From Christiangramia portivictoriae DSM 23547 (lineage in GTDB: Bacteria; Bacteroidota; Bacteroidia; Flavobacteriales; Flavobacteriaceae): a DNA stretch of 64,000 nt. The notes under the pieces were generated by a model that saw nothing but the letters and a program-made list of their open reading frames with translations, was not told the DNA's origin and ran no database searches. Shown in pieces: positions 61,035 through 64,000 of the stretch. Within the stretch, counting starts at the first letter, position 1; the number at the start of each line of letters is the position of its first letter. Location of the stretch: assembly GCF_000423045.1 (NCBI RefSeq), contig NZ_AUHF01000001.1, forward strand, positions 496,001 through 560,000. The letters are read 5' to 3'. The translations under genes were made by a program, and so were the position numbers.

Positions 61035-61373
61035 TTATTTTACCACTATTTTTCGGGTAGCTTTGGATCTTCCTTCTTCGATTTTAATAATATAAATTCC
61101 AGGAGTAAGGCTTGATACATCCAGTTCTCTTCCTCTTAGTCTGGTCTTGAGAACTGGTTTACCCAAAACATTATAGATCTCGATCTTCTTCTCCTGGTTT
61201 TTAGTGGAAGAAATAAAAACTCTTCCACCTGTAATCGGGTTAGGATAAATGGATAAACCATCGATAGAAATTTCTGTTCGAGCTGAAGCAGAGATAGAGT
61301 CCTGAGCGTTCGCAGGGATTGCCAACATCAGGAAACTAAACAATAAAAAGCTAAATAGGTACTTTTGCTTCAT
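61035..61373 (-). CDS. Minimal secreted protein with type IX (type A) sorting domain
   Basis: The 112-residue product is a signal peptide (1-24, ending ANAQ), about 12 linker residues, and then a complete type A T9SS C-terminal domain: LSIYPNPITGGRVFI, KKIEIYNVLGKPVLKT, LDVSSLTPGIYIIKIEEG and a terminal KATRKIVVK. The type A domain normally directs a large cargo through the type IX secretion system to the surface; here no cargo domain remains. It follows the repeat lipoprotein and receptor on the same strand. It may be a true tiny surface protein or a remnant of a longer gene. Confidence 0.88.
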   Translation of the reverse strand: MKQKYLFSFLLFSFLMLAIPANAQDSISASARTEISIDGLSIYPNPITGGRVFISSTKNQEKKIEIYNVLGKPVLKTRLRGRELDVSSLTPGIYIIKIEEGRSKATRKIVVK

Positions 61374-61463
61374 TCTATATGGTACAGATAAGACAAACTT
61401 ACAAATAAAATTTCAAAAATCCTGCCACAAAATACTGAGTCGGTGTAATTTATATCATATAAA

Positions 61464-61490
61464 AAAAGGGCTGCCTTCTGGCAACCCTTA
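61464..61490 (-). terminator. Intrinsic terminator after the repeat lipoprotein
   Basis: On the minus strand AAGGGTTGCC and GGCAGCCCTT pair over 10 bp (one G-U) around an AGAA loop and are followed by a run of seven T. It separates the lipoprotein from the sorting-domain stub. Confidence 0.85.
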
Positions 61491-61535
61491 ATTTGGCTAA
61501 TTATTGACTTTCAATATTTTAATTGAATATTGCTT

Positions 61536-63533
61536 TTAGTCAACCCAATCGAAATCTGCTGCATCTACAGTAGCGTCTGCATCGTAAGCTGCTTCAACAT
61601 CTGCATCCTCACCATCGATCTGGATTCCTGAAAGATCTGTTCTGGTATCATCTGCAATATCGATATTGGTTTCAAAACCTGATAAGGACAGACCATTGAT
61701 CGTTGCTCCAGAAAGTTTTTTGAATTGTAAGGCTGTTCCTCCGGCAGTGGAAACTGCAGTGATCTGGTCAAGCGTTGGCATATTATTTTCTCCATCTGCC
61801 TCTACAACAGTCGAGAAATTATCAATACTCAAGTTGATGTAGGCGTTGGTAACCGAACCATTCCAACCTTCAGTCCAGTCGATCTGGTCATCTTCGTTAT
61901 TTTCAAAGTAAGCATTGGTTACTGCAACTGAACCTCCAAAGAATTCAACTCCGTCATCTGCTCCATTGATAATAGCAATATTATCGATCGTAGTTCCAGA
62001 TCCAACAGCATAAAGAGATAGTCCGTTATACTGAGATTCAGAGTTGATCTGTGCTCCGGCATCCTTCAGAATTAAATAAGAGATAGAACCTGAATTGTCT
62101 TCAGCTTCAGAACCTCCGTAAACGATTCCACCAACTTCAGCGGTAGCGTTTACACCTTCAGTAGTTGCTGCGTTACCAGCGATCACAAGACCACCCCAGC
62201 TTCCTGCCTGACCTGAGGTCGAAGCCATCACTACCGGGCTGGATGCTGTTCCCTGGATATCGATCATAGCTCCTTGTTGTACTACGATATAAATACTGGT
62301 AGCATCGGTATCTGCGTCACTTCTCGCAGTTATTTTTGTTCCGGCTGGTATGGTAAGAGTTGCACCTGCGTTTACAGATACTACATCACTAATCACATAT
62401 TCGCTGCCACCATCCAAAGTAAGATCACTATCGATATTATTTGGAAGTACAGATACCTGTCCACGATTGGAGATCCAGTCGAAAGTAGATTCCATCACAG
62501 TAGGAGTTAAAGAATACGCATTATTAATATCAGCATCTTCACCATTCAACTGGATGTTAGAAAGATCTGTTCTGGTATCATCTGGAATATCAACTGAATT
62601 GTCATAACCATTTAAAGAAAGGCCGTTGATGATCGCTCCAGAGTTCTTCTTGAACTGTAATGCAGTTCCACCAGTGGTAGAAACCGCTGTAAAATTATTG
62701 ATAGTAGGTTGTTTGTCCTCACCATCTGCCTCAATTGCAGTAGAGAAATTTCCAATGGTATGAAGAACGTATACGTTATCGATAGTTCCATTCCAGCCTT
62801 CAGTCCAGTCTACAGCATCATCCTCATTATTCTCTAGGTAAAGGTTGGTAGCATTGGCAGAACCTCCGAAGAATTCAACACCATCATCGGCTCCATTAAG
62901 AAGTGCCACGTTCATGATTGAAGTTTCAGAACCAACTGCGTAAAGAGAAAGTCCGTTAAACTGTGATTCAGCATTGATCTGTGCACCAGCATCAGATAAT
63001 ACAAGGTAGTTGATAGAACCAGAATCATCTGCAGCGTCTGTTCCACCATAAAGAATTCCTCCTACTTCAGCAGTAGCATCGGTACCTTCGGTAGTAGCAG
63101 CATTACCTGCGATGATTAATCCTCCCCAGCTTCCTGCCTGTCCATTTGATGAACGCATGATCACAGGGGCAGAAGCGGTACCATTAATTTCGATATCACC
63201 GCCTTTTTGAACAACGATGTATACATTGGTAGCATCGCTATCATCCAGATCGGGATCTGCTACGATCTCTGTTCCGGCAGGAATTGTAAGAGTAACTCCA
63301 CTTTCCACGGAAAGAATTCCTGATAACTGGTAGGTGGTGTTTGCATCCAGCGTCATATCTTCATCAATGCTTCCGTTCAATACATTATCTGAAGGGTTTG
63401 GGTTCGGTGTACCAGCGTCGTCATCTGTAGGATTGATGATATCGATATCATTATCATCACTGCTACAACTGGTGATAAGCAGTCCGCCAAAAAGCGCGCT
63501 CATTAACAAAAAGTGTCTTGCTGTTTTTTTCAT
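61536..63533 (-). CDS. Surface lipoprotein with two ~295-residue beta-helix-like repeats
   Basis: The 665-residue product has lipobox LLITSC (Cys23) followed by SSDDND, an acidic stretch that in Bacteroidota promotes surface display of lipoproteins. A low-complexity linker (to about 55) leads into two long copies of one domain (about 58-354 and 369-665), both with TLTIPAGT, YIVVQ, GQAGSWGGL, AGNAATTEG, NGADDGVEFFGG, DWTEGWNG and an FDW end. The Gly/Asn-rich repeating strands suggest a right-handed beta-helix. Very acidic, possibly calcium-binding. It lies 51 bp after a TonB-dependent receptor gene, where SusD-type lipoproteins normally lie. No named function. Confidence 0.85.
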   Translation of the reverse strand: MKKTARHFLLMSALFGGLLITSCSSDDNDIDIINPTDDDAGTPNPNPSDNVLNGSIDEDMTLDANTTYQLSGILSVESGVTLTIPAGTEIVADPDLDDSDATNVYIVVQKGGDIEINGTASAPVIMRSSNGQAGSWGGLIIAGNAATTEGTDATAEVGGILYGGTDAADDSGSINYLVLSDAGAQINAESQFNGLSLYAVGSETSIMNVALLNGADDGVEFFGGSANATNLYLENNEDDAVDWTEGWNGTIDNVYVLHTIGNFSTAIEADGEDKQPTINNFTAVSTTGGTALQFKKNSGAIINGLSLNGYDNSVDIPDDTRTDLSNIQLNGEDADINNAYSLTPTVMESTFDWISNRGQVSVLPNNIDSDLTLDGGSEYVISDVVSVNAGATLTIPAGTKITARSDADTDATSIYIVVQQGAMIDIQGTASSPVVMASTSGQAGSWGGLVIAGNAATTEGVNATAEVGGIVYGGSEAEDNSGSISYLILKDAGAQINSESQYNGLSLYAVGSGTTIDNIAIINGADDGVEFFGGSVAVTNAYFENNEDDQIDWTEGWNGSVTNAYINLSIDNFSTVVEADGENNMPTLDQITAVSTAGGTALQFKKLSGATINGLSLSGFETNIDIADDTRTDLSGIQIDGEDADVEAAYDADATVDAADFDWVD
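61539..63362 (-). repeat. Internal tandem duplication inside the surface lipoprotein gene
   Basis: The 62472-63362 half and the 61539-62429 half encode two copies of a ~297-residue unit separated by about 14 residues. Long blocks agree nearly exactly at protein level (for example SWGGL, AGNAATTEG, NGADDGVEFFGGS, NNEDD, DWTEGWNG) and DNA similarity is visible in the same blocks, so the duplication is rather recent or kept similar by selection. Confidence 0.85.
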
Positions 63534-63584
63534 AATCTAAGGTTTGAATCTAAGTGGTTGTGTATATAAATTGTGGTTAAAAAA

Positions 63585-64000
63585 TTAGAAATTATAGCTT
63601 AGTCCCAGACTTAGTACCGCGCCTCTGGTGTAAGATCTTACGGTTTGCTCCGCTTCTACCGCATTACCCGATAAAGGTCTGATGGACTGATATCTTTCGA
63701 TCTCTGGATTTAAGAGGTTTTGTCCTTTGAATTCCAGTTCAAAGTTGTTTCCGAATTCCTTGGAAAGGATCAGATCAAGCGTTACAAAACCTTTTTCTAT
63801 GATTTCATCGTTGTACTGGATGTCTATAAAATCGAGGTTTTGAGTATCTGGTGAACCAAGCGCGTAAATTTTATCTGAAGCATAGTTCGCCACGATCGTT
63901 CCGCGGAACGGGTTTTCAGATTCTGTGCTGAAGTTGGCAGAGGCATTAAGGATCCAGTCTGATGCTCCCTGAAGTCCAATTTCATCGTTTCCATTATATC
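63585..64000 (-). CDS. C-terminal part of a TonB-dependent receptor (runs off the window)
   Basis: Only the last ~138 residues are present; the gene continues beyond position 64000. The visible part is outer-membrane barrel: SDWILNASANFST, NPFRGTIVANYASDK, IEKGFVTLDLILSKEFGNNFELEFKGQNLLNPEIE, and a final strand VLSLGLSYNF with the terminal Phe used by the BAM machinery. NLLNPEI is a frequent turn near the end of Bacteroidota receptors. It would take up a large ligand across the outer membrane using the TonB system and is followed 51 bp later by the repeat lipoprotein. Confidence 0.88.
   Translation of the reverse strand, partial: YNGNDEIGLQGASDWILNASANFSTESENPFRGTIVANYASDKIYALGSPDTQNLDFIDIQYNDEIIEKGFVTLDLILSKEFGNNFELEFKGQNLLNPEIERYQSIRPLSGNAVEAEQTVRSYTRGAVLSLGLSYNF

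Follow-up and report, generated by a model that had tools for sequence, protein, structure and literature searches.

At the end of a 64,000-nucleotide stretch of the Christiangramia portivictoriae DSM 23547 genome (the window, G000:C1:496001-560000; source genome 3.27 Mb, 99.85% complete) lies the C-terminal part of a TonB-dependent receptor gene, followed on the minus strand by the gene of a surface lipoprotein and that of a small protein with a type IX secretion system (T9SS) sorting tail. This order, given in a preliminary description made from the DNA letters, was borne out by the reading of open reading frames (ORFs), and extension of the sequence upstream, which the same description had proposed as a check, recovered the full 943-amino-acid (aa) receptor together with divergent PhoB/PhoR-like regulators. 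Here we describe the receptor and the lipoprotein as a pair of genes that come, change and go together, and whose products probably scavenge phosphorus at the outer membrane. The features of the locus are as follows:

63585..64000, minus strand: TonB-dependent receptor, last 137 residues, read as an ORF; the gene runs past the window
L002:4585-7416 (= G000:C1:559585-562416), neighbouring DNA: complete receptor gene, 943 aa
61536..63533, minus strand: surface lipoprotein, 665 aa, candidate partner of the receptor (ORF, homologues, adjacency)
62499..63398, minus strand: predicted beta-helix domain R1 of the lipoprotein, residues 46-345 (AlphaFold, structural matches)
61539..62462, minus strand: predicted beta-helix domain R2 of the lipoprotein, residues 358-665 (AlphaFold, identity to R1, profile match)
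61466..61489, minus strand: intrinsic-terminator-like hairpin between the lipoprotein and T9SS genes (scan; 10 pairs, then a T-run)
61035..61373, minus strand: T9SS-tail protein, 112 aa, with signal peptide and Por_Secre_tail and without a cargo domain (PF18962)
L002:7563-8246, outside the window: phoB-like gene, divergent from the receptor gene
L002:8247-9326, outside the window: phoR-like gene

The lipoprotein gene starts 51 bp after the receptor stop. Its product carries a lipobox cysteine (Cys23), so that the mature protein begins with CSSDDN; this is similar, not identical, to SDDFE, the lipoprotein export consensus reported for Flavobacterium johnsoniae (PMC5080379), both being polar then acidic with a shift by one position. 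The lipoprotein probably sits on the cell surface, and in a Bacteroidota host its export is expected to go through the lipoprotein export signal, not through type II secretion. The preliminary description had noted that it lies where a SusD-type protein might be looked for and yet lacks SusD features, being instead a repeated, beta-helix-like protein, and both statements hold. No SusD family of Pfam or NCBIfam matches it at E up to 1, and its sole Pfam match within that limit is a sub-threshold domain of unknown function (DUF). Its halves R1 and R2 are 66% identical (profile match of R2, E 8e-80), and AlphaFold folds the whole protein into two right-handed beta-helix domains (pLDDT 84.6, pTM 0.57); a SusD identity was rejected on these two grounds. 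No match to glycoside hydrolase family 28 (GH28) or polysaccharide lyase (PL) families was obtained in Pfam for the window lipoprotein (E up to 1) or for its copy in Flavobacterium limi (E up to 0.001).

Because the two-domain model superposed poorly in Foldseek, one domain was folded alone, and R1 by itself reached a pLDDT of 91.0 and a pTM of 0.91. The 50 structural matches listed for it have Z of 18.7 to 21.5 and rmsd of 2.8-3.7 Å over 237-259 aligned residues, and include tailspikes, the epimerases AlgG and AlgE, NosD, lyases, polygalacturonases and adhesins; a beta-helix fold shared with enzymes says nothing on function. Sequence relatives in the PDB were two designed repeat proteins (E 0.0043 and 0.086), which we took as chance matches. 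Among the residues invariant in 28 sequences are, in R1 numbering, D171, D172, E175, D193, D194, D197 and E223, and the first two of these acidic groups lie 22 residues apart, matching the spacing of rungs. This pattern suggests a ladder of acids on successive rungs that could serve metal binding, ligand binding or catalysis.

The number of domains varies in the family. The 90 homologues that we compared, drawn from the 80 best of 568 loci that a single-domain query matched, have one domain in 72 cases, two in 17 and three in 1, and, given how the sample was drawn, the multi-domain share (18/90) is no estimate for the population. R1 and R2 are sisters in a family-wide tree (support 99/95), and within the genus the R1s group with R1s and the R2s with R2s (FastTree), therefore the duplication, or its homogenisation, predates most of the genus. 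We also considered that the two domains might recently have undergone, or still undergo, gene conversion, and the separate groups within the genus speak against this.

The receptor carries the Pfam domains PF13715 (CarbopepD_reg_2), PF07715 (Plug) and PF14905 (OMP_b-brl_3). Its best NCBIfam model, TIGR01782, scores below its cut-off, and the SusC/RagA model is absent from its three NCBIfam matches (E up to 0.001). The phoB- and phoR-like genes adjoin it. For the regulator the best family is TIGR02154 (PhoB) at E 2e-64, with 217 bits against a cut-off of 296, and for the kinase the second-best family is phoR_proteo, with 234 of 334 bits. Beyond the phoR-like gene, also in the DNA neighbouring the window, lies a PF04101 glycosyltransferase gene; it runs on the opposite strand and shares some 60 bp with the 3′ end of the phoR-like gene (L002:9264-9326), an arrangement that L047 and L209 show too. 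In 14 of the 80 loci (e.g., L034:6256-6642) a small ORF of roughly 130 aa directly precedes the receptor, and in 5 of the 80 such an ORF lies downstream of the lipoprotein; these ORFs share 34-44% identity with a portion of the receptor, probably its N-terminal CarboxypepD_reg-like region.

Adjacency of receptor and lipoprotein proved to be the rule. The count took in plus-strand homologues longer than 250 aa, and receptor ORFs longer than 400 aa ending within 600 bp; 88 of the 90 homologues have a receptor directly ahead on the same strand, the other two being a second tandem copy and a gene at a contig edge. A receptor lies on the same side in 29/29 further loci of the family (L005-L033), and in 26 of 30 loci sampled across the phylum, own genome included; both of these samples share some species with the 80-locus sample. 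Of the four phylum-wide loci without a receptor, L235 and L238 begin within an open frame, which hides what lies upstream, and L223 and L237 show no receptor within the 1.5-kb flank. Chance neighbourhood would be rare, because the own genome holds only 29 Plug-domain matches, and was rejected against the 88/90. Lipoprotein matches, paralogues included, were found in 133 of 149 family genomes (E up to 0.001) and in 101 of 148 phylum genomes (E up to 1e-10).

The pair also occurs outside the phylum. Homologues matched 21 Pseudomonadota plasmid records, and four of the five inspected show the opposite order, with the lipoprotein gene ahead of the receptor gene; in the fifth, from Marinobacter, no receptor was found nearby. 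Against a profile built from partner receptors of Bacteroidota, the receptors concerned score E 5e-103 to 1e-127, and 1e-89 in the case of one truncated where its locus ends. On an Alteromonas plasmid phoB, phoR and genes for a phosphate-binding protein and an oxygenase precede lipoprotein and receptor, and on two Alphaproteobacterial plasmids lipoprotein and receptor are followed by type II secretion genes. Distant lipoprotein homologues are also held by three unannotated records labelled as phage (MT837092.1, LR745206.1 and MT838075.1), which may be misassigned bacterial contigs.

How closely the two proteins diverge together was measured on 23 of 24 phoB-linked loci plus the window, using log-identity distances and the first domain of each lipoprotein; L068 was left out, since its phoR call overlapped phoB too far. 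The distances of receptor and lipoprotein correlate at r 0.826 and those of PhoB and PhoR at 0.935, and the correlations with PhoB are 0.465 for the receptor and 0.121 for the lipoprotein. In partial Mantel tests the receptor-lipoprotein correlation given PhoB is 0.875 (p 0.0002), and that of lipoprotein and PhoB given the receptor is -0.53 (p 1.0). Comparison of the window with C. aestuarii (L047) illustrates this: PhoB and PhoR are 91% and 88% identical, receptor and lipoprotein 43% and 40%.

The slot beside phoB was then read across the genus, where the phoB gene is present in 24/24 genomes and the lipoprotein in 22/24. The double-domain pair occupies it in 19 of the 24 (the window, 17 loci L114-L130, and G160, in which it is split over two contigs). 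G152 has a one-domain version of the pair, G149 a divergent pair, and G156 (L147, G156:C1:1755000-1767000) a reversed pair with the lipoprotein next to phoB, an order otherwise seen here in Pseudomonadota. G163 and G168 have neither gene; the G168 assembly is 67% complete, yet its contig spans the slot with the T9SS and phoB genes in place. The receptor starts 110-225 bp from phoB, and the lipoprotein gene is 21-222 bp off in the same loci. The two genes thus arrive, change and are lost jointly, which fits a functional pair. That receptor and lipoprotein form one system was put forward earlier as an inference, and is now supported by the conserved adjacency, the correlated divergence beyond that of phoB/phoR, the joint exchange and loss, and the reversed pair in Pseudomonadota; neither a known receptor with a partner of its own upstream nor a family of homologues that never lie beside receptors has come to refute it.

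The position next to phoB/phoR-like genes also makes a phosphorus-bearing substrate more likely than the polymer or ion-rich ligand suggested at first. A candidate control element was found in the direct repeat TAAC-N7-TAAC, which has an 11-bp period, as do the Pho boxes of E. coli. Within 250 bp upstream of the receptors (86 of 89 promoters, from the window and 88 others, three receptors lying too near a contig start) it is present in 21/25 phoB-linked and 40/61 unlinked cases, 61/86 together, against 60/924 for other upstream regions of the same loci; on the antisense strand the counts are 1/25, 4/61 and 23/924. The background set, too, shows an excess of the N7 spacing (65 pairs, against at most 26 at the other spacings tested), perhaps as it includes other Pho-regulated genes near the loci, which would make the contrast conservative. 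In the window's genome the triple repeat occurs exactly once, at this receptor promoter, and a control pattern does not occur. The unit resembles the core TTTAACA of the motif that a Riemerella PhoP regulator is reported to bind (PMC9603813). PhoB probably controls the pair in this organism.

No match to PstS (PF12849) or PstC (TIGR02138) was found in the own genome, where control searches detected PstS in 13/14 genomes and PstC in 14/14 (12 above cut-off). Two PHO4-type Pit genes are present, one of them preceded by the double repeat, and the PhoB/PhoR-like regulators are kept.

Taken together, we consider it probable, with some reserve, that receptor and lipoprotein make up a PhoB-controlled outer-membrane module for phosphorus scavenging, of the same kind as lipoprotein FII of F. 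johnsoniae and ElpS of Caulobacter, in which the beta-helix presents the ligand. The lipoprotein would be carried to the cell surface, where its beta-helix would bind a phosphorus-bearing ligand and hand it to the TonB-dependent receptor, as BtuG does for BtuB; the receptor would then draw the ligand into the periplasm, and periplasmic phosphatases together with the Pit carriers would complete the uptake. Several results weigh against this proposal. The complex of the two proteins, the binding and identity of the ligand, and its hand-over are all steps that we infer. The PhoB and PhoR assignments fall under the NCBIfam equivalog cut-offs. Three repeat units in a row are found at 3/25 phoB-linked and 0/61 unlinked receptors (2/924 in the background), and the double repeat is not enriched genome-wide, with 78 matches against 177 for the reversed control; being too common in the genome, it was abandoned as the sole basis for a genome-wide Pho regulon. 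The partial Mantel correlation of receptor and PhoB given the lipoprotein stays at 0.652 (p 0.0002), a sign that part of the receptor's divergence follows PhoB independently. From related systems, loss of Fjoh_0546 in F. johnsoniae, tested for colony spreading only, had no effect, and the relevant passages on Caulobacter state that CC0171, unlike elpS, was expressed alike in rich and poor media and that a shift from rich to poor medium brought no significant change in intracellular phosphate (PMC2996285). The joint inheritance might also stem from the genes recombining as one block, with products that never touch.

Among the alternatives, the one that we take most seriously, while considering it unlikely, is that the lipoprotein acts as a surface enzyme (a phosphodiesterase, or an enzyme that cleaves a phosphorus-rich glycan as lyase or hydrolase), or activates or anchors a secreted phosphatase, with the receptor importing the product and no lid complex being formed. 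Many fold neighbours of R1 are indeed polysaccharide lyases, epimerases, polygalacturonases and tailspike depolymerases, and the invariant acids with their rung-like spacing between the first two groups recall the catalytic acids of polygalacturonases, which are similarly spaced. That said, NosD and adhesins match the same fold, the acidic ladder fits metal or ligand binding equally well, and such close co-divergence with a single receptor would not be required of an enzyme. Of the published findings, the rise of extracellular alkaline phosphatase activity reported for ElpS overproduction in Caulobacter favours this explanation as much as it favours capture (PMC2996285), and homology modelling led to the proposal that plant glycans are bound or hydrolysed (PMC8115612).

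Far less probable in our view is that the two genes are co-inherited merely because they lie side by side in a block that recombines, for instance under pressure from phages or competitors, with a separate role of the lipoprotein such as adhesion. TonB-dependent receptors do serve as phage receptors, and several divergent alleles plus an empty state at one slot of the genus resemble the exchange of surface antigens. However, phoB is about as near to the receptor as the lipoprotein gene is, yet it tracks the pair much less, and the two genes are found paired in two phyla, whichever of them comes first. To the notion that all three genes, T9SS protein included, form one uptake system, which the term 'set' in the preliminary description implied, we attach next to no credence. 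The tail protein matches two T9SS sorting-domain models (Por_Secre_tail PF18962 at E 7e-16, TIGR04183 at E 7e-17) and its gene does lie within 600 bp after the lipoprotein gene in 18 of the 90 homologues, as well as downstream in all 17 genus loci L114-L130; one of the 18 (L090) is a 608-aa protein and not tail-only. Yet the association follows the phoB-linked chromosomal site (15/24) and not the pair (3/66 elsewhere), a terminator-like hairpin lies in between, and the 11-bp repeat is missing from the gap ahead of the T9SS gene in the window and in 18/18 other loci, three of which have gaps of 36-38 bp with the ORF called from its longest start. The number of such hairpins in the region agrees with chance (3, where 2.3 are expected with sd 1.9), that at 61489-61466 having the longest stem. 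In G163 and G168 the T9SS gene is kept where receptor and lipoprotein are gone; the 11-bp repeat is then found upstream of it, which may be read in favour of the three-gene system. The T9SS protein was rejected as a third component, and its gene is most simply seen as a neighbour that belongs to a conserved block of the chromosome. In F. limi and in those genus loci that were read completely, this gene for a cargo-less tail protein stays in one block with tyrosyl-tRNA synthetase and LuxE-like genes, and at L058, L100 and L112 two T9SS-tail genes stand in tandem.

The finding that these lipoproteins are tied to one receptor, in one cassette and in two phyla, reduces the question of their role to one pair that can be tested. 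Should the lipoprotein prove to be a lid that presents the ligand, this would help to explain how Bacteroidota without PstS/PstC scavenge phosphorus in sea and soil, and would add a new fold to lipoprotein-assisted uptake at the outer membrane. A bolder version of the phosphorus-scavenging module, which we hold tentatively and would not bet on, is a third lipoprotein-assisted TonB uptake architecture beside SusCD and BtuBG: a right-handed beta-helix in one to several tandem copies would capture ligand as the lid of a phosphate-starvation receptor, encoded with it in an exchangeable two-gene cassette of Bacteroidota and Pseudomonadota, and in Bacteroidota that lack PstS/PstC would form a main high-affinity route of phosphorus through the outer membrane, its acidic ladder perhaps holding Ca2+ that bridges an anionic ligand.

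SusCD and PusCD share with this locus the order of a receptor followed by a surface lipoprotein, and PusCD is also phosphate-regulated, whereas here the lipoprotein lacks a SusD domain and the receptor is unmatched by the SusC model. The lid of BtuG is a beta-propeller. The BtuB-BtuG system of Bacteroides likewise places a surface lipoprotein as a lid on a TonB-dependent receptor, a likeness that would hold if our preferred reading is true and that implies no kinship; its ligand is vitamin B12, and its complex has been demonstrated (PMC10404256). Caulobacter ElpS (CC0170) is another phosphate-starvation lipoprotein encoded beside a TonB-dependent receptor gene (cc0171), and its authors suggest that the co-occurrence reflects functional interaction (PMC2996285). 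We compared it by description, not by the ElpS sequence, and it differs in being released by the type II secretion system.

The closest known counterpart is found in F. johnsoniae, where Fjoh_0541-0546 encode a glycosyltransferase (pf04101), OprP, PhoR, PhoB, a TonB-dependent receptor (TBDT; pf07715, pf13715, pf14905) and lipoprotein FII (IPR011050) (PMC8115612). On depletion of inorganic phosphate (Pi) the transcripts of Fjoh_0545 and Fjoh_0546 are strongly induced, with FC values of 8.02 and 9.91 in Table 1, log2FC being the term used in the text of the paper; lipoproteins of this type are described as making up a large part of the exoproteome under phosphate starvation, and FI-FIII as 31-36% identical to ElpS (PMC8115612). 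Our locus shares with F. johnsoniae PUSIV phoR, phoB, the three-domain receptor, a pectin-lyase-fold lipoprotein and, beyond phoR, the PF04101 glycosyltransferase. As in PUSIV, the homologous lipoprotein lies directly downstream of the receptor, the sequences compared being those of F. limi and other Flavobacterium and not Fjoh_0546 itself. It differs in having two beta-helix domains, where the Flavobacterium loci sampled have a single one, and in lacking a Porin_O_P gene between phoR and the glycosyltransferase gene. The F. limi locus (L065) has the PUSIV gene order including the Porin_O_P gene, and beyond the lipoprotein it agrees with the window in its genes for a T9SS-tail protein, a LuxE-like protein and tyrosyl-tRNA synthetase; its receptor and lipoprotein are 34% and 39% identical to those described here. 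Our literature search, which covered neither subscription papers nor preprints, returned no structural or functional study of the pair beyond those cited. This type of locus is thus already published, with expression data, and what is new here, as far as our searches show, is the doubled beta-helix, the variable number of domains, the joint exchange and loss of the pair at one slot, the 11-bp repeats before most of the receptors sampled, and a host without PstS/PstC matches.

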